A stretch of 33,012 bases of DNA from Armatimonadia bacterium (GTDB taxonomy: Bacteria; Armatimonadota; Zipacnadia; Zipacnadales; JABUFB01): contig JBDKVB010000182.1 of assembly GCA_039679385.1 (NCBI GenBank), forward strand, positions 1 through 33,012, written 5' to 3'. Position numbers and translations under genes: made by a program. A model generated the notes under the pieces. It did no database searches and had not been told where the DNA came from. It saw nothing but the letters and a program-made list of their open reading frames with translations. Positions 1,110 to 17,533 of this stretch are shown here, piece after piece. Positions within the stretch are counted from its first letter, which is position 1. Every line of letters starts with the position of its first letter.

Positions 1110-1562
1110 ATGGAGGACAAACCGCTGGCACACCATGAGTTCCCGATTCTGGGAAGGGCCTACTTTCTCGGAGGGCGGGCGTCAACCTCAGTGAAGCGTG
1201 CCCTGGCGGAGGCCGGGGTCGATGAGGAGACCATCCAGCGGGTCAGCGTCGCCTGTTACGAGGCGGAGATGAACGTGGTGCTGCACGCCCGAACGGGGTA
1301 CGTCCGGGTCGAGGTCTACCCCACCTGCGTGCGGGTCAGTGTGGTCGACCAGGGCCCCGGAATCGAGAATGTTGACCTGGCGATGAGGCCGGGCTGGTCC
1401 TCGGCCTCGGAAGAGGCGCGGGCACTGGGCTTCGGAGCCGGGATGGGGCTGCCCAACATCCGCGAGCATGCCGACGAGATGCAGGTCGAAAGCGCGCCCG
1501 GTGAGGGCGTGAGGCTGCATTTGACCTTCACGCGGGGGCGAGAAGCCAAGGCAGACGGATAG
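1110..1562 (+). CDS. RsbW-like anti-sigma-type ATP-binding protein
   Basis: This 150-residue protein is a single GHKL/HATPase_c domain of the serine-kinase type. The N-box region carries ACYEAEMNVVLHA (about residues 48-60), the G1 box reads VVDQGPGIEN (about 83-92), and a glycine-rich lid reads LGFGAGMGLPNI (about 111-122). Such proteins phosphorylate anti-sigma antagonists or bind sigma factors. Similar genes sit beside DRTGG genes and hydrogenase subunits in several clostridia and Thermotogae-like genomes. No Shine-Dalgarno sequence precedes the ATG. Instead a perfect hairpin, GTGAAGC/GCTTCAC, lies at 1090-1104, five bases upstream, so the start or its control may be unusual. The partner protein is not evident. 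It lies 18 bases before the second DRTGG-like gene. Confidence 0.8.
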   Translation: MEDKPLAHHEFPILGRAYFLGGRASTSVKRALAEAGVDEETIQRVSVACYEAEMNVVLHARTGYVRVEVYPTCVRVSVVDQGPGIENVDLAMRPGWSSASEEARALGFGAGMGLPNIREHADEMQVESAPGEGVRLHLTFTRGREAKADG

Positions 1563-1580
1563 GCTTCCGGGAGGCGACCG

Positions 1581-1934
1581 ATGCCGACAGACCAGGCTGT
1601 GACTGTGGCAAGAGCCACCGAGGCGCTGTCCCTGCGGGTGGAGGCCGGAGGCGAGCACCTGGAGGCTGCCATCACGGGAGCGCAGGTGTGCGACCTGCTG
1701 AGCCACGTGATGGCGCAGGGCAAGCATGGTCACCTGTGGATCACCATCCAGACCCATCCGAACATCATCGCAGTAGCGGCCCTGGCCGGCTTGAGCGGCA
1801 TCGTGATCGCCAGCGGTTTCGAGCCCGAGGACGACACGGTGATGCGGGCGGAGGACGAGGGCATCCCGCTGCTGATGTCGCCGCAGACGGCCTATGAACT
1901 CGCCGGGAAGCTGTATGAGTTGGGGGTCCGGTGA
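1581..1934 (+). CDS. Second small DRTGG-like regulatory protein
   Basis: The protein is 117 residues with a good ribosome-binding site (GGGAGG) about 6 bases before the ATG. It has the alternating strand-helix layout of the small DRTGG/HPr-kinase-associated fold. A central WITIQTHPNIIAVAALAGLSGIVIA stretch resembles the position where the first DRTGG protein has its TTHQTMRTAAI segment, and its end (EDEGIPLLMSPQTAYELAGKLYELG) matches the helix that closes these domains. The name motif itself is not conserved, so the assignment rests on the layout and the paired arrangement. It lies between two ATPase/PHP-type genes and probably works with them. Confidence 0.65.
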   Translation: MPTDQAVTVARATEALSLRVEAGGEHLEAAITGAQVCDLLSHVMAQGKHGHLWITIQTHPNIIAVAALAGLSGIVIASGFEPEDDTVMRAEDEGIPLLMSPQTAYELAGKLYELGVR

Positions 1935-2008
1935 GCCGCAGTTGCCGAGGCATGTGCCGCCATCCTTGAGGAAGACAGCCGCTCCCTAACGGGCGTTGCG
2001 CCTGCTGA

Positions 2009-2761
2009 ATGAAGCGATTGGTCGGAGTTGACCTGCACGTACATACGGCCCTGTCGCCCTGCGGCTCGGAGCAGATGCGGCCACCTGCGGTGCTCCTTAG
2101 CGCTGAGCGGCGCGGGATAGGGGTCGTCGGAATCGTCGACCACAATACAGCCAGGAACGCGGGGGCGTTTCTGGCGGCCTCGGAGGCTTTTGCGGTTCGT
2201 GTGTTCGTTGGGTTGGAAGTGGAGAGTGCGGAGGGCGTGCACCTTCTCGCGCTCTTTGACAGCACGGAATCGGCCCTGGAGTTGGATGCCGCCGTCGCAG
2301 CCCACCTGCCTCCCCTGGCCAATCGCCCGGACCTTTTCGGCGAGCAATGGCTCTTGGAGGAGTATGGCGAGGTGATCGGCTGCGATGGACGTCTGCTGGT
2401 TACGGCCACAGACTTGAGTATTGATGAGATCGCCAGGATGACCCAGGAGTTGTCGGGCTTCAGCCTTCCTGCGCACATCGATCGCTCTGCGAACGGCCTC
2501 CTCCCGGTATTGGGTTTTGTCCCCCCAGACTTGCCGGTCGATCTCTATGAGGTGTCGCGTCACCTGCCACGGTCAGAAGCGCGGGAGCGCTGGCCCCAGC
2601 TTCGAGGCTTGCCGCTGGTCGCCAGTTCGGACGCACACTACCTGGAGGACATCGGCCAGGGGGCAATCCTGGTGCCGCAGGAGTTCGCAGACCCAGGGGC
2701 AGGTGCGAGGGACTGGGCTCAGGCGCTCGGGCAGTACCTTCTGGAACACGAGGAGGCTTGA
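2009..2761 (+). CDS. PHP-domain metal-dependent phosphoesterase-like protein
   Basis: This 250-residue protein begins VDLHVHTALSPCGSEQM, the first PHP metal motif (HxH plus a downstream acidic/histidine site). It continues with VGIVDHNTARNAG (about residues 45-57), and later ASSDAHYLEDIG near residue 210, the fourth motif. All metal-binding positions look intact, so a trinuclear-metal phosphoesterase activity is plausible. The substrate is unknown. The central part about 95-140 (FGEQWLLEEYGEVIGCDGRLL) resembles the insert of PHP proteins found beside NADH-dependent hydrogenases. The ribosome-binding site before the ATG is weak. The gene is 74 bases after the second DRTGG-like gene and 60 bases before the next ATPase gene. 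Confidence 0.8.
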   Translation: MKRLVGVDLHVHTALSPCGSEQMRPPAVLLSAERRGIGVVGIVDHNTARNAGAFLAASEAFAVRVFVGLEVESAEGVHLLALFDSTESALELDAAVAAHLPPLANRPDLFGEQWLLEEYGEVIGCDGRLLVTATDLSIDEIARMTQELSGFSLPAHIDRSANGLLPVLGFVPPDLPVDLYEVSRHLPRSEARERWPQLRGLPLVASSDAHYLEDIGQGAILVPQEFADPGAGARDWAQALGQYLLEHEEA

Positions 2762-2821
2762 CCCACCGCCTCGGAGGAGAGCCAGGAGGCCGGGGCTCCA
2801 AGTCGAGAGGTCGGAGCGTCC

Positions 2822-3370
2822 ATGAGGGAGATCTCGCTGCACATCCTGGACGTGGCACGCAACAGCATCGAGGCTGGTGCGCAGACGCTCACGGTCTGTG
2901 TCACCGAGAACCGCGCTCACGACGAGATGGAGATCCTCATTGAGGACGACGGCTCGGGGATGGACGCCGAGAGGCTGTCGCAGGCGACCGATGCGTTCTT
3001 CACGACCAGGACGACCCGTCGCTGGGGACTGGGACTGCCGCTCTTCCAGGCCACCTGTGAGCGGTCCGGCGGGAAGCTGGAGGTAACCTCGGCGCCCGGG
3101 AGAGGGACACGGGTACGGGCGTCCCTGCAGCTCTCACACCTGGATCGTCCCCCGCTGGGTGACATGGGCGCGGTGATGCAGGCGCTGGCCCTGGAGCCCG
3201 CGCTCCAGCGGGTGACGTACCGGCAGCAGACCGACGGACAGGTGTTTGAGCTGGACACGGGTGACCTGATTGAGGAGCTCGGCACAGGCAGCCTCACCAA
3301 CCCGGCGGTTCTCACCTGGCTGCGTGAGTATGTGAACGAAGGCGTGGAGGCGACCGGCGCCGTGCAGTGA
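2822..3370 (+). CDS. HATPase_c domain protein (histidine-kinase-like ATPase without a phospho-acceptor domain)
   Basis: In this 182-residue protein the N-terminal 110 residues form a GHKL ATPase. The N-box is HILDVARNSIEAGAQ (residues 8-22), the G1 box is IEDDGSGMD, and a TTRTTRRWGLGLPLF segment serves as the F/G2 lid. There is no H-box dimerisation domain and no membrane segment. The last 70 residues form an extra domain rich in LE and T residues that I do not recognise. Proteins of this kind recur in [FeFe]-hydrogenase loci ahead of the thioredoxin-like and NuoE subunits. A kinase or chaperone-like role is an inference. Confidence 0.8.
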   Translation: MREISLHILDVARNSIEAGAQTLTVCVTENRAHDEMEILIEDDGSGMDAERLSQATDAFFTTRTTRRWGLGLPLFQATCERSGGKLEVTSAPGRGTRVRASLQLSHLDRPPLGDMGAVMQALALEPALQRVTYRQQTDGQVFELDTGDLIEELGTGSLTNPAVLTWLREYVNEGVEATGAVQ

Positions 3371-3462
3371 TCACCACTGGAACAGGGGGCTAAGGCTACA
3401 GGCCTACGAAGTGCGCAATCTCGAGGGGTTCGCTATCCCAAGCCGAAGGAGGTACGGAAAGG

Positions 3463-3837
3463 GTGAAGACGCGCGAGGAACTCCAGGCTTTACGTGAGCG
3501 TGCGAAGGCTGCGCTCGCGGTTCGGGACAACGAGGGGCAGGCACGAGTTGTCATCGCCATGGGCACCTGCGGGATCGCCGCGGGAGCCCGGGAGGTGATG
3601 ACTGCCCTGCTGGACGAGTTGGCGCAACGCGGACTTACCAACGTGACGGTGTCGCAGACCGGCTGCAAGGGACTGTGTGACAAGGAGCCGGTGGTGGAGG
3701 TCCATAGCCCAGGCTGCCCGGTGGTGACCTACGGGCATGTCACGGGGCCCATCATCCGGCGGATCGTGGCCGACCAGATCGTCAACGGACAGGTCGTCAG
3801 GGAGTACGCGATCATGACGGGATCGGAGGCCGGTTAG
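3463..3837 (+). CDS. Thioredoxin-like [2Fe-2S] ferredoxin subunit of the hydrogenase
   Basis: This 124-residue protein has a thioredoxin-like ferredoxin fold. Four cysteines are placed as GTCGIAAG, then TGCKGLCDKEP, then a further Cys in GCPVV. The pattern matches the small 2Fe-2S proteins encoded just before NuoE/NuoF-type subunits in bifurcating hydrogenases and related dehydrogenases (HndB-like). It probably passes electrons within the complex. The GTG start at 3463 follows a purine-rich stretch (GGAGG at 3449-3453, GGAAAGG just before the start). The stop is 2 bases before the ATG of the next gene, which suggests translational coupling with the NuoE subunit. Confidence 0.8.
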   Translation: MKTREELQALRERAKAALAVRDNEGQARVVIAMGTCGIAAGAREVMTALLDELAQRGLTNVTVSQTGCKGLCDKEPVVEVHSPGCPVVTYGHVTGPIIRRIVADQIVNGQVVREYAIMTGSEAG

Positions 3838-3839
3838 CC

Positions 3840-4316
3840 ATGGCGGACACCTGCCTGTGTGAACAGAGCTTCCCCAAGATCGACGCCATCGTCGAGCAGA
3901 AGGGCGCGGTACCCGACTCACTCATCGAGATTCTGCACGCGGTCCAGGAGGAGATCGGGTATCTGCCGCAGGGCGTCCAGGAGTACATCGCCGAGAAGTT
4001 GGACATCCCGGCCGGGACGGTTGAGGGCGTCGTGAGCTTCTACAGCTTCTTCACGACCGTTCCGCGCGGGCGTCACACCATCAAGGTCTGCCAGGGGACC
4101 GCCTGCTACGTTCGCGGCGGCAAGCGGGTGCTGGAGACGGTGACCAAGCACTGCGGCTGCGGCGTAGGAGAGACAAGCGAGGACATGCGGTTCAGTCTCC
4201 AGGTCGTGCGCTGTGTGGGAGCCTGCGGGCTGTCACCGGTGATGGTGGTCGGTGACGACATCTATGAACGAGTGAGGCCGACCAAGGTTGCAGAGCTGCT
4301 TGACAAGTACGAGTGA
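3840..4316 (+). CDS. hydC: HydC / NuoE-like [2Fe-2S] subunit of NAD-linked [FeFe]-hydrogenase
   Basis: This 158-residue protein is of the usual length for the NuoE family. It shows the helical N-terminal region (ILHAVQEEIGYLPQGVQEYIAEKL, roughly residues 31-54), the VSFYSFF motif near 62-68, and the cluster ligands in KVCQGTACYVRG and RCVGACGLSP (CX4C then CX3C). NuoE-like subunits carry one [2Fe-2S] cluster and pair with the flavin subunit NuoF/HydB. The gene lies immediately between the thioredoxin-like protein and the HydB fusion, the standard order. The symbol follows Thermotoga/Acetobacterium-type HydABC usage. Confidence 0.92.
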   Translation: MADTCLCEQSFPKIDAIVEQKGAVPDSLIEILHAVQEEIGYLPQGVQEYIAEKLDIPAGTVEGVVSFYSFFTTVPRGRHTIKVCQGTACYVRGGKRVLETVTKHCGCGVGETSEDMRFSLQVVRCVGACGLSPVMVVGDDIYERVRPTKVAELLDKYE

Positions 4317-4413: not shown

Positions 4414-7400
4414 ATGCCTACGTATCGATCGCATGTGCTGGTCTGCGCGGGGGCGAGTTGTGTGTCCTCGGGCTCGCAGGCGGTGGCGGACGCACTGGAG
4501 CAGGCCATCACGGACGGCGGGCTTTCCCACGAGGTGAAGGTGGTTCGCACGGGCTGCATGGGCTCGTGTGACCTTGGCCCCGTGGCGGTGGTTTACCCGG
4601 AAGGAGTCTTCTACCAGAGGCTCAAGCCGGAGGATATGGCACTCATTGTTCAGGAGCATCTACTGAAGGGGCGGCCGGTGGAGAGGCTGATGTACGTTCC
4701 GGCGGCGGGTGAGGAGCCGGTCCTCACCATGGAGAAGATCCCCTTCTTCGCGTACCAGAAGAAGATCGTTCTGCGCAACTGCGGTGAGATCGACCCGGGC
4801 AACATCGAGGAGTACATTGCCCGCGACGGCTATGAGGCGCTGGCGCAGGCCGTCACCGAGATGACCCCGCAACAGGTCATCGACACGGTCAAGGCCTCGG
4901 GCCTGCGCGGACGTGGCGGCGGCGGCTTCCCCACCGGCCTGAAGTGGGAGCTGACGGCCAAGGCCACGGGCGATCAGAAGTATGTAGTGTGCAACGCGGA
5001 TGAAGGCGACCCCGGCGCCTTCATGGACCGGAGCGTCCTCGAAGGCGACCCCCACAGCGTCATCGAGGCTATGACGATCGCCGGCTACGCCATCGGCGCG
5101 AACAAGGGCTACATCTACGTACGCGCCGAGTACCCGCTGGCCATCCAGAGGCTGTCCGTGGCACTCACCCAGGCTCGCGAGTACGGGCTGCTGGGCGAGG
5201 ATATCTTCGGCTCGGGACATAGTTTCGACATCGAGCTGCGGATGGGCGCCGGGGCCTTCGTGTGCGGTGAGGAGACCGCGCTGATGGCCTCGATCGAAGG
5301 CAAGCGCGGTGAGCCACGGCCACGACCGCCCTTCCCCGCGAACCAGGGGCTATGGCAGAAGCCGACGCTACTGAACAATGTGGAGACCTACGCGAACATC
5401 CCGCCGATCCTGCTGAAGGGCGCGGAGTGGTTCGCTTCGATCGGCACGGAGACCAGCAAGGGTACCAAGGTGTTCGCGCTGGCCGGTCACGTGAACAACA
5501 CCGGTCTGGTAGAGGTGCCGATGGGGACACCCCTGGGCACCATCATCTACGAGATCGGCGGTGGAATCCGCAATGGCCGGAAGTTCAAGGCGGCCCAGAG
5601 CGGCGGTCCCTCCGGCGGCTGCATCCCCAGGGAGTTCCTCAATACCCCGGTGGACTATGAAAGCCTCAAAACGCTGGGCTCGATCATGGGCTCCGGCGGG
5701 CTCATCGTCATGGACGACACGACCTGCATGGTCGACCTGGCCCGGTTCTTCCTGGACTTCGTGCAGGACGAGTCCTGCGGCAAGTGCCCGCCCTGCCGAA
5801 TCGGCACCAAGCGGATGCTGGAGATCCTCGAGCGCATCTGCGCCGGCGAGGGTCAGGTGGGCGACATCGAGCTCCTGGAGGACCTTGGCCAGCAGATCAA
5901 GCAGACGTCGCTGTGCGGCCTCGGACAGACGGCTCCGAACCCGGTGCTGAGCACCATCGCCTACTTCCGGGAGGAGTACGAGGAGCACATCCGGGACAAG
6001 CACTGCCGTGCGGGCACCTGCAGCGAGATCATGAAGGCGCCCTGCGAGCATGCTTGCCCGGCCGGAGTTGACGTGCCTCTGTATGTGAGCCTGATCGCCG
6101 AGGGTCGGATCGACGACGCCTACGGCGTGATCCGCGACTCGAACCCCTTCCCGTCAGTGTGCGGCCGGGTCTGCACGGCCTACTGCGAGGCCCAGTGTCG
6201 CCGCGGGCAACTCGATGCCCCGGTCTCCGTACGTCTGCTCAAGCGAGCGGCGTCCGATCACCGGACCAGCACCTGGCAACCGACGCTTGAACCGCAGCGG
6301 CATCACAAGGTAGCGGTCATCGGCTCGGGCCCGGCGGGACTGACGGCTGCCTACGACCTGGTCCGCAAGGGCTACGAGGTGACGGTGTTCGAGAAGCAGC
6401 CGGTGCCGGGCGGCATGATGGCCCTCGGGATTCCGGACTACCGGCTTCCGCAGGATGTACTGCAGCGGGAGATTCAGGACATCCTCGACCTCGGGGTGGA
6501 ACTGCGGACCGGTACGGCCTTCGGGACCGACGTGACGCTGGAGAGCCTGGAGGCCGATGGCTTCGACGCGGTCTTCCTGGCCGTCGGGTGCCACCAGGGG
6601 GTTCCGCTGGACTGCCCGGGTGCTGACGCCGAGGGCGTCATGGATGCTGTGGAGTACCTGCGCAGCATCGCCCTGCGCGAGCCGCTGAAGGTCGGAAAGC
6701 GTGTGGCTGTGATCGGCGGCGGCGACACCGCAGTCGACTCTGCCCGGTCCGCTCTGCGGATGGGCGCAGAGCAAGTGCACCTGGTGTACCGCCGGACGAA
6801 GGAAGAGATGCCGGCCCATCCCGCTGAGATCGAGGAGGCAGCCCTCGAGGGAGTGATCTTCCACTTCCTCGCCGCGCCGCAAGAAGTGAGGGTGGAGAAC
6901 GGTCACGTGGCAGGTCTGGTCTGCCAGCAGATGCAGTTGGGCGGCTTCGACCGTAGCGGAAGGCGTCGTCCGGAGCCCGTTGAGGGTGCCTCGGTCGCGC
7001 TCGACGTCGACACCATCATCGCCGCGATCGGCCAGCAGCTCAACGGAGACTGCGCCTGCCTGGAGACAGAGCGGGGCAAGATCAGTGCCGACCCGATCAC
7101 CCTCGCAACGAGCGACCCCAGGGTGTTCGCGGGTGGCGACGCGACCGTGGGACCGATGACCGTGGTCGATGCCATTGCCGACGGCCACCGGGCTGCGCGG
7201 GCGATCCACAGCTTCCTCTCGGGCGAGCCGCTCCCGACGCCCAGGAAGCGGGCCAAGACAAAGGTCGGGGCGGACATCATGGCACAGCTCGAGGAGACGG
7301 CGGACGAGGAACGGCCACCGGCCGAGGTGCCCCGGATCCCGGATACCTACCGTCGCAGCGGCTTCGCCGAGGTCGAGCTGGGCTACTCGCTTCCGACGGC

Positions 7401-7461
7401 GTGCCGCGAGGCAGGACGGTGCCTGCACTGCGACTACCTGGTGATCGAGGAGGAAGCGTGA
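4414..7461 (+). CDS. hydB: HydB/NuoF flavoprotein fused to a GltD/NfnB-type FAD-NAD(P)H module
   Basis: The protein has 1015 residues and an ATG start. Residues 1-95 form a thioredoxin-like [2Fe-2S] domain (C11, C16, C48, C52). Residues about 110-525 are NuoF: the FMN/NADH motif [16 protein letters not shown] at 163-178, [14 protein letters not shown] at 193-206, [20 protein letters not shown] at about 285-304, and the N3-cluster cysteines C455, C458, C461 and C501. Standard HydB then ends with a 2[4Fe-4S] ferredoxin. Here a cysteine-rich domain (C531 to C595) leads into a GltD/NfnB-like oxidoreductase with FAD motif GSGPAG (637-642) and a second nucleotide-binding motif GGGDTA (768-773), followed by YRR (792-794) in the position that favours NADPH. 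The C-terminus carries [20 protein letters not shown]. The subunit could therefore exchange electrons with both NAD(H) and NADP(H). I recall that NuoF-GltD combinations occur in other anaerobes, including the Sporomusa-type Nfn complex, so the fusion has some precedent. The direction and stoichiometry are inference. Confidence 0.9.
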
Positions 7462-7558
7462 CGTCCACGGTGTGGCTGGCAGGACGGTCCTTCATCGTAT
7501 CGTCCACGTGGGTAGCGCCATGCGTTCCACCAGGTACCGACCGAAAAGGAGAACCCCC

Positions 7559-9310
7559 ATGTCAGACTTCATCATAAGGATCAACGGGCAGGATGTCGCA
7601 GCCAGCCCGGGCATGACCGTCCTTGATGCTGCGAAGGCCGCGGGGATCCACATCCCGACGCTGTGCTATCACCCCGACCTTCCGGCGCAGGGAGCCTGTC
7701 GCATCTGCCTCGTGGAGATTGAGGGCGAGAGGGTCCTACAGCCCTCCTGCACCTACCCGGTGCGCGAGGGCATGAAGATCCAGACGCACTCGGCAACGGT
7801 TCGCAAGGCAAGGCGCACGGTGGTCGAGTTGCTGCTGTCGGACCATCCCTCGGACTGCACCGCCTGCGCACGGAACCGGAACTGCGAGCTCCAGGCACTC
7901 GCCGAGGAGCTTGGCATCCGGGAAGTCAGGGTCAAGGCCGAGCCTCATGGCTGGGGCATCGACGACTCCAGCCTGTCGGTAGTGCGAGACCCGGACAAGT
8001 GCGTGCTGTGTCGACGGTGCCTGCAGACCTGCTCGATGATCCAGGAGGTCAGTGGCCTGCGCATCTTCGGACGGGGCTACGACAGCATCGTCGGCGCACC
8101 CTTCGACACCCCCCTGGGCGAGGCGCTGTGCGTGAACTGCGGGCAGTGCATCAACCGCTGCCCGACGGGAGCGCTGATCGAGAAGACGCAGATTCCGGAG
8201 GTGTGGGAGGCGATCGAGGACCCGCACCTGCACACGGTGGTGCAGACGGCTCCGGCTGTGCGCGTGGCTCTCGGTGAGGCCCTGGGCCTTCCGTTAGGGC
8301 AGGTCGTGACCGGGAAGCTGACCACGGCGCTGCGGCAGCTCGGCTTCGATGCGGTCTTCGACACCGACTTCACCGCCGACCTGACGATCATGGAGGAGGG
8401 CTACGAGCTCATCCACCGGGTCACTGAGGGGGGCGTGCTTCCGCAGTTAACCTCCTGCAGCCCGGGCTGGATCAAGTTCATCGAGTACTTCTACCCGGAC
8501 CTGCTCCCGAACCTGTCGAGCTGCAAGTCGCCGCAGCAGATGTTCGGGGCTGTGGCAAAGACCTACTACGCCCAGGAGGCGGGGATCGACCCGGCAAACC
8601 TGCGCGTGGTGTCGGTCATGCCCTGCACGGCCAAGAAGTTCGAGGCCGCACGTCCGGAGATGTGCGACTCGGGCTACCGGGATGTCGACTACGTGCTCAC
8701 GACCCGCGAGCTGGCGCAGATGATCAAGGAGAAGGGCATCGACTTCGCCAACCTGCCGGAGAGCGAGTATGACGACCCGCTGGGCGAATCGACGGGCGCT
8801 GCCGTCATCTTCGGCGCGACCGGAGGCGTGATGGAAGCAGCACTGCGGACGGCCTACGAGGTGATCAGCGGCGAGAAGCTGGGCAACCTCGACATCAAGG
8901 CTGTGCGCGGGATGGAGGGGATCCGCGAGGCCACCATCACCATCGGCGACCTGGAGGTGAAGGCGGCCGTCGCTCACGGACTGGCCAACGCCGCGAAGCT
9001 GCTGGACAAGATTCGCGCCGGCGAAGCGGACTACCACTTCGTCGAGGTGATGGCCTGCCCCGGCGGCTGCATCGGTGGTGGCGGTCAGCCCATCCCGACC
9101 TCGCTGGAGGTGCGCAAGGCCCGAGCGGGAGCCATCTACCAGGCGGACCAGGACCTGGCGATCCGCCGGTCGCACGAGAATCCGTCGGTGCAGCGGATCT
9201 ACGAGAGGTTCCTGGGCAAGCCGCTAAGCGAGAAGTCGCACCGCCTGCTGCACACCAAGTACACCCCACGGGCGAGGACGGGACGTTCGGTGCCCGTGAC
9301 GAGGGGATAG
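7559..9310 (+). CDS. hydA: [FeFe]-hydrogenase catalytic subunit HydA (M3-type, NAD-linked)
   Basis: The start is ATG 7559, preceded by AAAAGGAG; the longer open frame to 7472 adds no family-like sequence. The protein has 583 residues. In order it has a [2Fe-2S] domain (C36, C47, C50, C64), a His-ligated [4Fe-4S] domain (H96, C100, C103, C109), two [4Fe-4S] motifs (C148-C158 and C191-C201), the H-cluster domain from about 220, and the small-subunit-like tail ending RLLHTKYTPR. H-cluster motifs are L1 TSCSPGW (C300, S301), L2 MPCTAKKFEA (C356) and L3 EVMACPGGCIGGGGQP (C500, C504). L1 has Ser where clostridial enzymes have the second of two adjacent Cys; the other ligands are intact. It reduces protons or oxidises H2 using electrons from HydB/HydC and ferredoxin in the cytoplasm. 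It needs HydE, HydF and HydG for cofactor assembly, of which only HydG is here. Confidence 0.95.
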   Translation: MSDFIIRINGQDVAASPGMTVLDAAKAAGIHIPTLCYHPDLPAQGACRICLVEIEGERVLQPSCTYPVREGMKIQTHSATVRKARRTVVELLLSDHPSDCTACARNRNCELQALAEELGIREVRVKAEPHGWGIDDSSLSVVRDPDKCVLCRRCLQTCSMIQEVSGLRIFGRGYDSIVGAPFDTPLGEALCVNCGQCINRCPTGALIEKTQIPEVWEAIEDPHLHTVVQTAPAVRVALGEALGLPLGQVVTGKLTTALRQLGFDAVFDTDFTADLTIMEEGYELIHRVTEGGVLPQLTSCSPGWIKFIEYFYPDLLPNLSSCKSPQQMFGAVAKTYYAQEAGIDPANLRVVSVMPCTAKKFEAARPEMCDSGYRDVDYVLTTRELAQMIKEKGIDFANLPESEYDDPLGESTGAAVIFGATGGVMEAALRTAYEVISGEKLGNLDIKAVRGMEGIREATITIGDLEVKAAVAHGLANAAKLLDKIRAGEADYHFVEVMACPGGCIGGGGQPIPTSLEVRKARAGAIYQADQDLAIRRSHENPSVQRIYERFLGKPLSEKSHRLLHTKYTPRARTGRSVPVTRG

Positions 9311-9351: not shown

Positions 9352-9459
9352 CAACACCAGGAGCCATGCGGAGAGGAAGTCCACAGCGTTCCGGGAGGGA
9401 TCGCGGACCTTCGTAGCCAATAACCAAGACTGACTTCATCCGTGAGGAGATCGATCGAG

Positions 9460-10899
9460 ATGTCCAGCGCGGACAGCGGAAGCGGCACCTGGAGTCGCGA
9501 ACGGATTGAGCAGACGGCCCACCGCATCTTTGACCCGGCGGCGACGGAGGGGATGCTGGAGAAAGGGGCCACTGCGGAGGCTCAGGAGGTACGCGACCTG
9601 CTTCACCAGGCTCGCAGCATGGGCGGGCTATCACCGGCCCAGGCGGCGGTCGTAATCCAGGTAACCGACCCGGCCCTGCGCGAGGAGATCAAGGCGACTG
9701 CTCGCCTGCTCCATGAGAAGGCCTACTCACGGCGGATCAACCTGCTGGCCCCCGTGTGCCCTACGAACCGGTGTGTCGATGACTGCCTCTACTGCCCCCT
9801 GCGAAGAGCCAACTCACGCCTGAAGCGCAGCGCCCACGGGACGAGGGACCTGCAGCGGGAGGTCGTGGCGCTTCTGGACGAGGGTCACAAGCACGTGATG
9901 CTCGTGTTCGGCAATGACCGAAGCGGCCTGCCCTATGTGCGAGACATGGTGTGGTCCACCTACGGGGCACGCTCGGGTATGCGGCAGATACAGCGCGTCG
10001 ACCTGAACCTGGACCCGGTGCCGGGGGATGACCTGCGGCAGATGAAGGACGCCGCTCCGCTGGGCACCTACCACGTCTTCCAGGAGACCTATCATCCCGC
10101 GTCCTACGCCACGCTGCACCCCAGTGGGCCAAAATCTGACTACACCTGGCGTCTCACCTGCCATGACCGGGCACGAGAGAGTGGACTCGATGATGTGGGC
10201 CTGGGCGTTCTGCTCGGGGCCCACGACTTCTCCTTTGACGTGGTGGCGATGCTGCAGCACTTCTGCCACCTGGAGGAGGCGTACGGGTTCGGCCCAGTGT
10301 CTGTCACGTACCCGCGGATGATCCCCACTCCGACGGCTCCGGCTTCGCTTGAGCCCGAACGGCAGGTGAGCGACGAGGACTTCCAGCACGTGGTGGCGGT
10401 GACTCGTCTGGCTCTCCCCTACACGCAGATTGCCCTGTGCACGCCGGCCACGCGAGAGGTGCGTCTGGAGCTGTACCGCCTCGGCATCTCGACGGTGAGT
10501 GTGGGCTCGCAGAGCTACCCGGGCGTGTACACCGGGGATGGTGAGCCGGAATCTGCCGGGACTTTGCGAGTGAGTCGCCCGCGGCCTCTGGAGGAACTGG
10601 TCTACCGCATGTGCGACGCCGGGATGGTACCGAGCTTCTGCGTGGCCTGCTACGTCAAGCGGCGGAGGCAGAGCGTGAGGACAGAGGGCAGCCCGGTAGA
10701 GCGCCTTCAGGAGCGCTGTCAGCCCAATGCCCTCCTGTGCCTCAAAGAGTACCTGATGGACTACGCTTCACCAGCGACTCAGACCGTCGGCGAGCGGGTG
10801 ATCCAGCAAGAGCTCGCCAGGCTGCCGGAGAAGGCCCGCTCCATGACGCTCGACCTGATGGAGGAGGCCGAGGCAGGGCTACGTGGTCAGACGCTGTAG
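9460..10899 (+). CDS. hydG: HydG, radical SAM tyrosine lyase for H-cluster assembly
   Basis: HydG cleaves tyrosine to supply the CO and CN ligands of the H-cluster iron. The 479-residue product has the radical SAM motif CVDDCLYC (CX3CX2C). The C-terminal [4Fe-4S] site has FCVACY followed 22 residues later by RCQPNALLCLKEYLMDYA, giving the CX2CX22C spacing specific to HydG. It lacks close similarity to ThiH beyond the shared core. The start was set at ATG 9460 because GAGGAG (9444-9449) lies 10 bases upstream; an in-frame GTG at 9442 overlaps that ribosome-binding site. It lies 149 bases after hydA, behind a hairpin. HydE and HydF are not encoded in the window. Confidence 0.9.
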   Translation: MSSADSGSGTWSRERIEQTAHRIFDPAATEGMLEKGATAEAQEVRDLLHQARSMGGLSPAQAAVVIQVTDPALREEIKATARLLHEKAYSRRINLLAPVCPTNRCVDDCLYCPLRRANSRLKRSAHGTRDLQREVVALLDEGHKHVMLVFGNDRSGLPYVRDMVWSTYGARSGMRQIQRVDLNLDPVPGDDLRQMKDAAPLGTYHVFQETYHPASYATLHPSGPKSDYTWRLTCHDRARESGLDDVGLGVLLGAHDFSFDVVAMLQHFCHLEEAYGFGPVSVTYPRMIPTPTAPASLEPERQVSDEDFQHVVAVTRLALPYTQIALCTPATREVRLELYRLGISTVSVGSQSYPGVYTGDGEPESAGTLRVSRPRPLEELVYRMCDAGMVPSFCVACYVKRRRQSVRTEGSPVERLQERCQPNALLCLKEYLMDYASPATQTVGERVIQQELARLPEKARSMTLDLMEEAEAGLRGQTL

Positions 10900-10966: not shown

Positions 10967-13441
10967 TTGGCTGAACAGAGCGCACCGGCAACCGGTGTCG
11001 TCACCACGATCGCCGCCAAGTGTCGGCGCTGCTACAACTGCGTGCGCAGTTGCCCGGCCAAGGCAATCCGTGTGCAGGGCGGTCAGGCACAGGTCATGCC
11101 GGAGCGATGCATCGGCTGCGGGAACTGCATCCGCGTCTGCGCCCAGGGCGCGAAGCAGGTGCAGTCGGCGCTCCAGACTGTGCTGGGCATGCTGGCGCAG
11201 GGCTCGCCGACGGTTGCCATCCTCGCACCTTCCTATCCTGCGGCCTACGAGGGAGTCAGTGCCGGGCAGGTGGTCGGCGCAGCTCGTGCGGTCGGCTTCT
11301 CGCGGGTGATGGAGGTCGGCTTCGGTGCAGAGATGGTGGCGAGGGCCTATGCGGACCTGCTACGTCGGCCGCCGAATCATGCGGTGATCGCTACCCCTTG
11401 CCCCGCCCTGGTTACCTACATCCAGAAGCACATGCCCGAGCTGTCGCCGAACCTGGCTCCCCTTGTCTCGCCCATGATCGCCCTGGGCCGCGCCATCAAG
11501 CAGGAGTACCTGCCGGGGGCGCAGGTGGTGTTCGTCGGCCCCTGCATCGCGAAGAAGGCAGAGCTGGCAGAGCCGACCGTCGCGGGCGCTGTGGATGCGG
11601 CACTTACCTTCCTGGAACTCGAGGAGCTGCTGACCCTGCGCGGGGTGGACCTGGCGCAGGCAGTGCCCTCGATGGCCGACGAACCTCTGCCCCACTTCGG
11701 AGCGCTGTTCCCGGTGTCAGGCGGGCTCCTGCGTACGGCGGCGGTTCAGGCGGACCTGATGGACGATGCGATCGCCGTGGTCGAGGGGCCGGACCGGTGT
11801 CTTGCAGCGCTGCGGGAACTACGGGAGGGGCAGTTCCCGGCACGCTTCGTGGATGCCCTGCTGTGTGAGGGGTGCGTGGCCGGTCCTGCCTATGGCGGCA
11901 ACACCTCGCCGCTGGCGCGGAAGGCCTTGGTCACGGCTCACGTACGGGAGCTCCAGGCAAAGGCACGGGCAGTGCCTCGGGCCCTCAAGAGCGTGTCGCG
12001 GATTGACCTGACACGCACCTTCGAGATGCCGTCAGCGCCGAGCCATGTGCCCAACGAGACGGAGATCCGGGACATCCTGGCCAGCACCAACAAACATGGC
12101 CCCGCCGACGAGCTCAACTGCGGCGCCTGTGGGTATGCGACTTGTCGGGATAAGGCCATTGCCGTGCATGAGGGCCTCGCCGAGACCGAGATGTGCCTCC
12201 CGTACCTGATCGACCAGTTGCAGGTGAACCTGGAGCGCCTCAGCCGCAGCAAGGAGGAGATCGAGCGCGCCCGGGAAGCCGCCATTCGAGCGGAGCAGTT
12301 GGCGTCGATGGGGCGACTGGCATCGGACATCGCCCACGAGCTGAGTAACCCGCTGGGCAAGATCGCTGCCTTCGCGCAGCTCCTGCGCGACAACATGGCG
12401 ACGGAGGACCCTCGCCGGGAGGACCTGACGACCATCGTTGCCGAGGCCCTGCACTCTCGCGAGGTGCTGGCGAGTCTTGAAGGCTTTGCGCGGCAGCGTG
12501 AGCCGCACTTCCAGCAGGTGAACCTGCGCCAGTTGGTGGAGCGAGCCGTCGAGGAGGCCGGTCCGGCCCTGGCGCTGCACGAGGCGGAGCTATCGATCCA
12601 GGTTGACCCGGACCTTCCCGAGATTGCCGCCGACGCGGACCTGATGGCACAGGTGCTCGTGCACCTGGTCACCAACAGCCTCGAAGCTCTCGATGGAGTC
12701 GGGAAGGTGGAGATCCTCGCACGAGCTTCCGCCGACCGGCAGAGGATTGAGCTGGTGGTGCACGACGATGGCCCGGGGATTGACCCGCACCTGCTGCCAA
12801 GGCTGTGTGAGCCTTTCGTCACCACGAAGTCGGACCGGCCTGGTGCAGGGCTGGGACTGGCGGTTGCTCATGGAGTCGTGCAGGCGCACGGTGGGACGCT
12901 GGGGATTGCCAGCAAGTTAGGCGTCGGCACCTCTGTGACGCTGCGACTGCCCTCGGATGCGCTACCCACGGCGCCGGTGGAGGCAGTGAAGGTGCTGGTG
13001 GTCGATGACGACCCGGACTTCCTCGAGCAGCACCGGATCATGCTCACGGGGATGGGCTTCGAGGTTGTGACGGCGGAGCGAAGTGACGAGGCGATTGAGG
13101 TCAGCAACCGGGAGATACCCGATGCTTTCGTGCTGGACCTGATGATGGAGCGGACCGACTCGGGCGCACGGCTTGCGAGAGCCCTGCGTCGTGACCCGCG
13201 GTTCCGACGAGCGCCGATTGTGATGCTGACCTCGGTTGTGCGGGATGTGGGTTTCGACTTCTACCGGAACCCGCGCGAGGTGCTGGAGTGGATGAAGGCG
13301 GACGCCTGGTTCGACAAGCCTGCGCCGGTGGCCGAGCTTGCGGCAACGATCCAGCGGCTCCTCACCGGCGAGCGGCCTCAGGGGACGACCTCGCAGAAAC
13401 CGGCGGACAGCAGCGCTGCCCCAGGGGATCGGGCAAGCTGA
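10967..13441 (+). CDS. Hybrid histidine kinase with an HsfB/HydS-like [FeFe]-hydrogenase sensor domain
   Basis: The protein has 824 residues and a TTG start; GAGGTGGG lies just upstream and an in-frame TGA at 10955 closes the frame. Domains in order: two [4Fe-4S] motifs (C19-C29, C48-C58); a group C/D-type hydrogenase-like domain with ATPCPAL (C145), VGPCIAKKAE (C193) and LLCEGCVAGP (C300, C303); a Fes-type four-cysteine cluster motif (C385, C388, C393, C410); a coiled coil; HisKA with phospho-acceptor H457 in IAHELSNP; HATPase about 560-660; and a receiver domain with D724 and K784. Catalytic L1 and L3 are altered, as in sensory hydrogenases thought to bind H2 with little turnover. No membrane segment is visible, so it should sense H2 or cellular redox state in the cytoplasm and feed a phosphorelay. 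HsfB proteins often have PAS domains; direct fusion of kinase and receiver is less usual. Confidence 0.9.
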   Translation: MAEQSAPATGVVTTIAAKCRRCYNCVRSCPAKAIRVQGGQAQVMPERCIGCGNCIRVCAQGAKQVQSALQTVLGMLAQGSPTVAILAPSYPAAYEGVSAGQVVGAARAVGFSRVMEVGFGAEMVARAYADLLRRPPNHAVIATPCPALVTYIQKHMPELSPNLAPLVSPMIALGRAIKQEYLPGAQVVFVGPCIAKKAELAEPTVAGAVDAALTFLELEELLTLRGVDLAQAVPSMADEPLPHFGALFPVSGGLLRTAAVQADLMDDAIAVVEGPDRCLAALRELREGQFPARFVDALLCEGCVAGPAYGGNTSPLARKALVTAHVRELQAKARAVPRALKSVSRIDLTRTFEMPSAPSHVPNETEIRDILASTNKHGPADELNCGACGYATCRDKAIAVHEGLAETEMCLPYLIDQLQVNLERLSRSKEEIERAREAAIRAEQLASMGRLASDIAHELSNPLGKIAAFAQLLRDNMATEDPRREDLTTIVAEALHSREVLASLEGFARQREPHFQQVNLRQLVERAVEEAGPALALHEAELSIQVDPDLPEIAADADLMAQVLVHLVTNSLEALDGVGKVEILARASADRQRIELVVHDDGPGIDPHLLPRLCEPFVTTKSDRPGAGLGLAVAHGVVQAHGGTLGIASKLGVGTSVTLRLPSDALPTAPVEAVKVLVVDDDPDFLEQHRIMLTGMGFEVVTAERSDEAIEVSNREIPDAFVLDLMMERTDSGARLARALRRDPRFRRAPIVMLTSVVRDVGFDFYRNPREVLEWMKADAWFDKPAPVAELAATIQRLLTGERPQGTTSQKPADSSAAPGDRAS

Positions 13442-13488
13442 GCACGCTGGAGGACCTTGCGACCTGGAGGGGATGGCGGACGAACCTT

Positions 13489-14979
13489 GTGGAGCTGGAC
13501 GCGGACATCCTGATTGTCGACGACGAGCCCGCGATTCGCAACGGGTGTCGTCGCGTCCTTGCCGCCTGCAAGGCGCGCCTCGAGATCGCAGGCACCGGTG
13601 CCGAAGCGATGGAGAAGCTCGGGGCCAAGGACTTTGACGTGGCGATCATCGACCTGATCATGCCCAGCTTCGGCGGCATGGAAGTGCTGGACAGGCTGGC
13701 CGAGGCGGACAACCCGGTCGTCCCAATCGTGATCACTGCGCACGCCAGCATCGAGACGGCAGTGGAGGCGATCAAGCGTGGTGCCTTCGACTACCTGCCC
13801 AAGCCCTTCGTGCCGCTGGAGCTCATCACGAGGGTCGAGCGAGCGCTGCGGTGGCGGCGACTGCGTCAGGAGGCAGACCGCAGGCTGACCGAGCTGGACA
13901 CTGAGAAGACGCGGCTCCGGGCAATCGTGGGAAGCCTCGCCGACGGCGTTCTCATCAGCAACTTGCAGGGCGAGGTGGTCCTGTGTAACCGTGCGGCCTG
14001 TCAGGCGCTGGGCATCGATGAGTGTCACGGTGAGCCGCGACCCGTGGACAGTGTGGTGCAAGACGAGGTGCTCCGAGGGCTCCTCCGGGAGGCTACGGGG
14101 ACCGCTAGCGGTGAGGAGGAAGGCGCCGACGGGCCTGCCCTGACGACGCAGCTCACCCAGGGCGATCAGGTCTATATGGCGCGAGTGGTGCCGATTCCGG
14201 GAGCCCAGGGACTGCCGCTCGGTGCGGCAACGGTGCTGCGGGATGTTACGCAGATCATGCAACTGGAGCGGGCGAAGTCGCAGTTCATGTCGATGGTGGC
14301 TCATGAGCTCAAGACCCCGCTCGCGGCAGTCCAGGGATACCTGCAGGCCATCCTGGTAGCCCAGACCACGAGCCCGGAGAAGGTTCGCGACATCATCACG
14401 CGATCGGGAGAGCGCGTGGAGGGCATGACGCAGTTGGTGCGCGATCTGCTGGACCTGTCGCGGGCTGACATGCTTCCCACACGGCACGTGGAGGAGCTGC
14501 AGTTGGGTGAAGTCGTGGCCGAGATCCTCGAGCACCAGCAACACTTCGCCGAGGCAACCGGGGTTACGCTTCGGGTCGCTATCCCGAAGGAGCTTCCGGC
14601 GCTGCACATGGACCGCGAAGAGCTGGGGCGGATCCTGACGAACCTCGTGAGCAACGCGATCAAGTACAACCTGCCCGGCGGCGAGGTGGTGGTTTCGGCG
14701 AAGGCGGAGGCAGCCGGGCTGCACGTGTCGGTGCAGGATACCGGTCTGGGAATTCCACCGGAGGCCTTGCCAAAGTTGGGGCAGGAGTTCTTCCGGGTGA
14801 ACCTCCCGGATCGTCGCGGGACAGTCGGAACCGGGCTCGGGCTATCGCTGGTGAAGCGGACGGTGCAGTCCTGTGGTGGGGAGCTTGAGGTGCAATCGGA
14901 GCTCGGCGCCGGCAGCACCTTCACCGTGCACCTGCCTCGTGCGGTGAACTCCGGGCCTGTTGACGCCGCTGACTCGTGA
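13489..14979 (+). CDS. REC-PAS-histidine kinase, partner of the hydrogenase-like sensor kinase
   Basis: The protein has about 496 residues from GTG 13489. This start leaves the whole receiver domain and avoids a 150-base overlap with the upstream gene; the ribosome-binding site (GGAGGGG at 13466) is somewhat far, so the start is uncertain. Domains: an N-terminal receiver (D11, D12, phospho-acceptor D55, K105), a helix, a PAS domain (about 142-258), HisKA with H272 in MVAHELKTPLAA, and a HATPase ending GTGLGLSLVKR. There is no transmembrane segment and no DNA-binding domain. Placed directly after the hybrid kinase, it is a likely recipient of phosphate from that protein's receiver. Where the signal goes next is not visible here. 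It is followed 15 bases later by the nfn promoter, so it probably ends the hydrogenase unit. Confidence 0.88.
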   Translation: MELDADILIVDDEPAIRNGCRRVLAACKARLEIAGTGAEAMEKLGAKDFDVAIIDLIMPSFGGMEVLDRLAEADNPVVPIVITAHASIETAVEAIKRGAFDYLPKPFVPLELITRVERALRWRRLRQEADRRLTELDTEKTRLRAIVGSLADGVLISNLQGEVVLCNRAACQALGIDECHGEPRPVDSVVQDEVLRGLLREATGTASGEEEGADGPALTTQLTQGDQVYMARVVPIPGAQGLPLGAATVLRDVTQIMQLERAKSQFMSMVAHELKTPLAAVQGYLQAILVAQTTSPEKVRDIITRSGERVEGMTQLVRDLLDLSRADMLPTRHVEELQLGEVVAEILEHQQHFAEATGVTLRVAIPKELPALHMDREELGRILTNLVSNAIKYNLPGGEVVVSAKAEAAGLHVSVQDTGLGIPPEALPKLGQEFFRVNLPDRRGTVGTGLGLSLVKRTVQSCGGELEVQSELGAGSTFTVHLPRAVNSGPVDAADS

Positions 14980-15023: not shown

Positions 15024-15143
15024 CGACCTCTACTCAGTCCGTTCCCTGAGGCGCGGCCCGGAGGCCGCAATCAGGGTTTTCAGGCCCAAGGGGCCACAAG
15101 GGTGGCCCAGTTTCCGGTCAGTTCTCCGTGTCGAGGTGTCGCG

Positions 15144-17533
<2,390 letters not shown>

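Follow-up and report, generated by a model that had tools for sequence, protein, structure and literature searches.

A HydS-type sensor domain fused to a hybrid histidine kinase beside an NADH-dependent [FeFe]-hydrogenase in an Armatimonadia bacterium

The window, that is, the whole stretch of DNA analysed here, comprises positions 1 to 33,012 of the forward strand of contig JBDKVB010000182.1 (GCA_039679385.1) from an Armatimonadia bacterium. Its genes follow the order RsbW-like HATPase, DRTGG, PHP, small HATPase, [2Fe-2S] ferredoxin, NuoE, NuoF-GltD fusion, group A6 HydA, HydG-like protein, P0001 and Rec-PAS-kinase, and this order is mostly preserved among related Armatimonadota. P0001, the protein under study, is encoded by the second gene downstream of the A6 HydA. 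The features are as follows.

1110..3837, plus strand: conserved accessory genes (RsbW-like HATPase, DRTGG, PHP, HATPase, [2Fe-2S] ferredoxin)
3840..4316, plus strand: HoxE/NuoE-like subunit
4414..7461, plus strand: NuoF-like subunit fused to a GltD/NfnB-like flavoprotein (Pfam)
7472..9310, plus strand: group A6 NADH-dependent [FeFe]-hydrogenase HydA (896 bits, cut-off 765)
9442..10899, plus strand: HydG-like radical SAM paralog (334 bits)
10967..13441, plus strand: HydS-HisKA-HATPase-Rec hybrid sensor kinase P0001, 824 aa (ORF and Pfam search)
11012..11152, plus strand: N-terminal 2[4Fe-4S] ferredoxin-like domain, residues 16-62 (Pfam)
11210..11887, plus strand: [FeFe]-hydrogenase H-domain (Fe_hyd_lg_C), residues 82-307 (Pfam and model of residues 1-420)
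11390..11410, plus strand: L1 motif ATPCPAL, residues 142-148, with P144 at the proton-transfer Cys and C145 at the ligand position (alignment)
11537..11557, plus strand: L2 motif GPCIAKK, residues 191-197, with C193 and K196 (alignment)
11864..11875, plus strand: L3 motif LCEGC, C300-E-G-C303, a CX2C that is the standard CX3C minus one residue (alignment)
12113..12202, plus strand: FeS domain CX2CX4CX16C, motif from C385 (Pfam)
12308..12499, plus strand: HisKA dimerisation domain with phospho-accepting H457 (Pfam, alignment)
12632..12955, plus strand: HATPase_c domain with intact N, G1 and G2 boxes (Pfam, alignment)
12992..13366, plus strand: receiver domain (D681, D724, S756, K784), homologous to a stand-alone CheY-like gene that follows hydS-kinase genes in other phyla
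13486..14979, plus strand: Rec-PAS-HisKA-HATPase histidine kinase P0004

The reading frame of P0001 starts with TTG and is unbroken over 824 codons. Orthologs with 61-70% identity occur in related genomes and at least 571 more distant relatives in species genomes, and P0001 is therefore not a chance ORF. As the sequence-only reading had proposed, a hydrogenase-like sensor domain is fused directly to a hybrid histidine kinase in one soluble chain: Pfam recovered Fer4_10 (2e-9), Fe_hyd_lg_C (7e-44), FeS (4e-9), HisKA (1e-7), HATPase_c (9e-22) and Response_reg (3e-12) within the ORF, and no segment attained transmembrane hydrophobicity in a scan of the protein. The residues of a hybrid kinase are all present (H457, N570, G602, G628/G630, D724 and K784). 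The predicted structure of residues 1-420 (mean pLDDT 92.9, pTM 0.90) matched solved [FeFe]-hydrogenases, with Z of about 40 to CpI and CbA5H over about 350 aligned residues and 24-25% identity to CpI.

The same reading had placed the sensor at the locus of its probable target enzyme, and the A6 HydA at 7472-9310 is indeed the probable target of P0001, as P0004 is its probable partner. The L1 of this HydA reads TSCSPGW, with Ser at the C300 ligand position where the other five aligned HydA have Cys; Ser is also found there in Hydrogenedentota BfuA (PMC11406978). The product of 4414-7461 is a single chain of 1015 aa with a [2Fe-2S] thioredoxin-like domain, NuoF and a GltD/NfnB-like flavoprotein. 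The HydG-like paralog (9442-10899) retains CX3CX2C and CX2CX22C; none of its six Armatimonadota orthologs examined (L166-L169, L171, L173) has the exact CX2CX22C, and in some of them cysteines stand at altered spacing. A role of this protein in producing a dedicated cofactor for CX2C sensors was unsupported: relatives outside Armatimonadota have canonical HydG nearby, and the paralog of the window type turned up at receiver-fused Armatimonadota loci only, with the orthologs read lacking the exact motif. On the minus strand, a 309-aa ORF (15030-15959) adjoins the kinase gene; it has no Pfam match and may not be a gene. Elsewhere, the genome carries the maturases HydE and HydF (both on C138) and a canonical HydG (C70, 724 bits). 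On C73 lies its second hydrogenase locus, where the gene for P0002, a HydS of the PAS type, precedes one for a SpoIIE phosphatase; a third HydA is on C128. P0002 has 42% identity to P0001 over the H-domain and FeS domain. Unlike P0001, it has the CX3C spacing, carries Ala in place of C299, ends in a PAS-like part rather than a kinase, and lies at a phosphatase-linked locus.

In the H-domain, P144 aligned with C299 of CpI and T143 with S298; of the remaining proton path, E279 is replaced by Y, E282 by L and S319 by A. The four H-cluster-type cysteines (C145, C193, C300 and C303), whose absence would have told against the sensor assignment, are all present in the alignment and invariant across 61 HydS-type sequences, and so is K196, which neighbours the [2Fe] site. 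Both motif peculiarities claimed from the sequence were recovered, namely proline in L1 at the proton-transfer Cys and CX2C instead of CX3C in L3. Among 51 kinase-type relatives including P0001, the C299 position holds P in 22, T in 11, A in 10, S in 6, N in 2 and C in none. These counts agree with the published proportions for HydDB sensory hydrogenases (about 43% Ala and 10% Pro; PMC10055695), and proline at this position is thus not unusual. CX2C was found in 51/51 aligned kinase-type relatives, whereas PAS-type HydS and groups A, B and D have CX3C, one residue more; 17 apparent CX3C rows in a motif count were CCxGC sequences read from the first Cys and are CX2C by alignment. Since the E/D-x-L-x-C spacing before L3 and the G-C-x-x-G spacing after it are unchanged, the deleted residue was between the two cysteines. 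CX2C is fixed throughout the kinase-fused set, which rules it out as a change private to P0001, and the suggestion that it tunes this sensor individually did not hold. Among the publications searched, none described a purified protein of the CX2C type.

An H-domain tree was made without the L3 columns; it included six group A HydA, and the characterised TmHydS is absent from it. Group A HydA separated from the P0001 side at 100/100, in line with the earlier expectation, for which a phylogeny had been requested, that the sensor domain falls outside the catalytic group. P0001 lies inside a 100/100 clade of ten Armatimonadota proteins within the kinase-type set and grouped with PAS-type HydS at 89/91. 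The PAS-type HydS come together in a single clade at 100/99, which sits among the kinase types with weak support (87/93), and CX2C needs two changes on this tree, a count that depends on that 87/93 nesting only. P0001 combines the features by which group C is recognised, namely loss of the proton-transfer Cys, a C-terminal CX2CX4CX16C, which is characteristic of the FeS domain of group C and D sensory hydrogenases (PMC8163306), and placement outside group A. As for the marks of an H-cluster protein, it has the four cysteines but lacks the CX3C spacing of L3. Pfam recognised in P0001 no PAS domain, as in the M2f architecture; HisKA-HATPase-Rec stands there instead. Because group C proteins with a histidine kinase have been published (PMC11406978), we filed P0001 as HydS-type rather than M2f. 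Judged by its FeS domain, its residues and published descriptions, with a tree that lacks TmHydS, P0001 is a HydS-type (group C) sensor.

Several known systems resemble P0001. TmHydS of Thermotoga maritima (group C, M2f) likewise has two N-terminal [4Fe-4S] clusters and no C299 (PMC10055695, PMC8163306), Gly at the M353 position and a C-terminal CX2CX4CX16C cluster, but carries a PAS domain in place of kinase and receiver. BfuT of Hydrogenedentota (group C3, subtype V) is a HydS-histidine kinase fusion beside HydA genes (PMC11406978). The set that includes P0001 also takes in four Hydrogenedentota members, L071, L089, L117 and L130, which have no fused receiver and keep the kinase His. HydDB group C1, histidine kinase-linked, comprises putative sensors acting via histidine kinases (PMC5037454), a trait shared with P0001, which may belong to C1 or to C3. 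HfsB/HsfB and Ruminococcus albus HydS are HydS-type regulators adjoining a hydrogenase, with a group C resemblance by description (PMC11837493), but are of the PAS type; in the literature searched, the name HsfB led to genome papers only.

Considering the above results, we have proposed that P0001 is a cytosolic HydS-type sensor kinase that reports H2, or a redox state set by H2, and adjusts its NADH-dependent [FeFe]-hydrogenase operon, a model to which we give slightly better than even chances. In the plausible mechanism, the H-domain would take electrons from H2, the presumed signal, at a slow, kinetically blunted H-cluster without the proton-transfer Cys, whose occupancy is likewise presumed. 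A charge or conformational change would pass to the C-terminal [4Fe-4S] domain and on to the HisKA helices, H457 would be phosphorylated, and the phosphate would move to D724 of the fused receiver and from there on to the adjacent P0004, or would compete with it. The direction of control is presumed as well, and as no DNA-binding regulator was recognised beside P0001, the final output is one that we infer. In Moorella mulderi and Thermanaeromonas, a CX2C HydS is joined to a sigma-54 activator AAA+ domain and a Fis HTH (L124:10001-12238, L079:10001-12274), possibly forming a one-protein hydrogen- or redox-responsive transcription factor, and these relatives would point to a transcriptional output.

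Of the readings considered, sensing of H2 through an H-cluster is the likeliest, with a chance of about one half, ahead of redox sensing by [4Fe-4S] only. The related TmHydS and TamHydS bind an H-cluster and turn over slowly without C299 (PMC10055695, PMC8163306), and genetic data on HydS of R. albus and HfsB of Thermoanaerobacterium fit a regulatory role (PMC11837493). HydF was found in 13/14 Armatimonadota genomes with this CX2C type, against 50/291 overall, and lies about 5 kb or less from CX2C hydS in G192 and G275; in 67 of the 79 loci elsewhere, the sensor gene has a HydA homolog no more than 10 kb away. Against this model, the L3 spacing that helps to hold the H-cluster is, by alignment, shorter in the whole kinase-fused set, and H-cluster motifs were hardly found in the group C1 proteins of PMC11406978. 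Moreover, most close orthologs lack the kinase His, and the simple autokinase picture therefore fails for the subclade.

The strongest alternative, a serious one that we consider possible yet less probable, is a hydrogenase-fold redox sensor without the [2Fe] subcluster, whose four cysteines would hold only [4Fe-4S] and which would read the ferredoxin/NADH state rather than H2. Nar1-type relatives are hydrogenase-like proteins with [4Fe-4S] only. The fixed CX2C of every aligned kinase-fused member favours such a sensor, as does a survey of 20 further genomes with CX2C HydS-kinases, assembled from metagenomes and thus possibly incomplete, in which HydF had no match in 11, with L1, L2 and L3 unaltered in those of their sensors that were aligned. 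HydF was missing in 10/13 genomes without HydA seen near hydS and in 1/7 with HydA nearby, counts that are descriptive given the shared ancestry of the sequences. The L061 genome (3.6 Mb) lacks HydF, and the 2.24 Mb (62%) of it that were read contained no HydG and no other hydrogenase domain. A hydrogenase-4/formate-hydrogenlyase-like membrane module, instead of HydA, precedes the CX2C HydS-kinase gene at L061:246-9744, L137:2247-6509, L076:5371-6897 and L090:77-1201. None of the genes read in these four genomes, which have no HydF match, was recognised as encoding a NiFe large subunit. On the other hand, genome incompleteness may account for part of this pattern: L066 has a canonical HydG but no HydF match, L089 has an adjoining HydA yet no HydF, and the L061 genome retains HydE (L263:14008-15207, 305 bits, above the cut-off). 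The window's own genome carries all three maturases, and residues beside the [2Fe] site such as K196 are invariant.

A second alternative concerns the kinase half and is compatible with either signal. In 59 of the 74 testable loci, a homolog of the P0001 receiver is encoded in hydS itself or no more than 600 bases beyond it, mostly as a separate CheY-like gene directly downstream; in Armatimonadota orthologs of about 806-825 aa it is fused. By this comparison, the P0001 receiver derives by fusion from a CheY-like gene that is normally separate. The phospho-accepting His is replaced by A, E, S or Q in 7/10 receiver-fused Armatimonadota orthologs, whereas it is kept in 78/78 kinases outside this subclade; as four different residues have taken its place, it was probably lost more than once. 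The receiver Asp and Lys are retained in all fused proteins with data, and Ser is also retained. The kinase half might thus be mainly allosteric, with the sensor acting on P0004, which would phosphorylate the fused receiver, in the manner of the pseudokinase DivL acting on CckA. Intact P0004 orthologs lie directly downstream of the His-less HydS-kinases in G252, G251 and G248, and P0004-like kinases of 40-45% identity occur in the six other genomes tested, but P0001 itself has H457 and every ATP-binding box, and no P0004 homolog was found in the several kilobases read downstream in the His-less G254 and G256. For P0001 we regard this arrangement as rather unlikely. Slightly less probable again is the broader proposal that the kinase-fused CX2C set forms a large, phylum-wide group of hydrogenase-shaped sensors without [2Fe] that read redox via [4Fe-4S], and that in Armatimonadota such a sensor would also be a receiver-fused, partly His-free regulator of a separate kinase. 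Finally, a catalytic hydrogenase with a regulatory tail is highly improbable: the fold and cysteines are complete and TmHydS without C299 retains some activity (PMC10055695), but the fused kinase speaks against it, and the tree together with the replaced C299, E279, E282 and S319 positions rules out identity as a group A enzyme.

HydS joined to a histidine kinase has been published before, as BfuT (PMC11406978) and HydDB C1 (PMC5037454). The literature searched did not describe CX2C as a fixed feature, nor the receiver fusion, the disappearance of His or the sigma-54 fusion. Sensory [FeFe]-hydrogenases have been named H2 sensors on little direct proof, and a soluble single chain of sensor, kinase and receiver offers a direct biochemical readout. 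The contrasts between CX2C and CX3C, and between genomes with and without HydF, let the need for an H-cluster in sensing be tested, and the conversion of a kinase into an allosteric regulator can be followed in the repeated loss of His after the receiver was fused, a natural experiment. P0001 has an altered metal site and relatives whose kinases are partly disabled, which makes it a useful variant for asking whether such sensors detect hydrogen.
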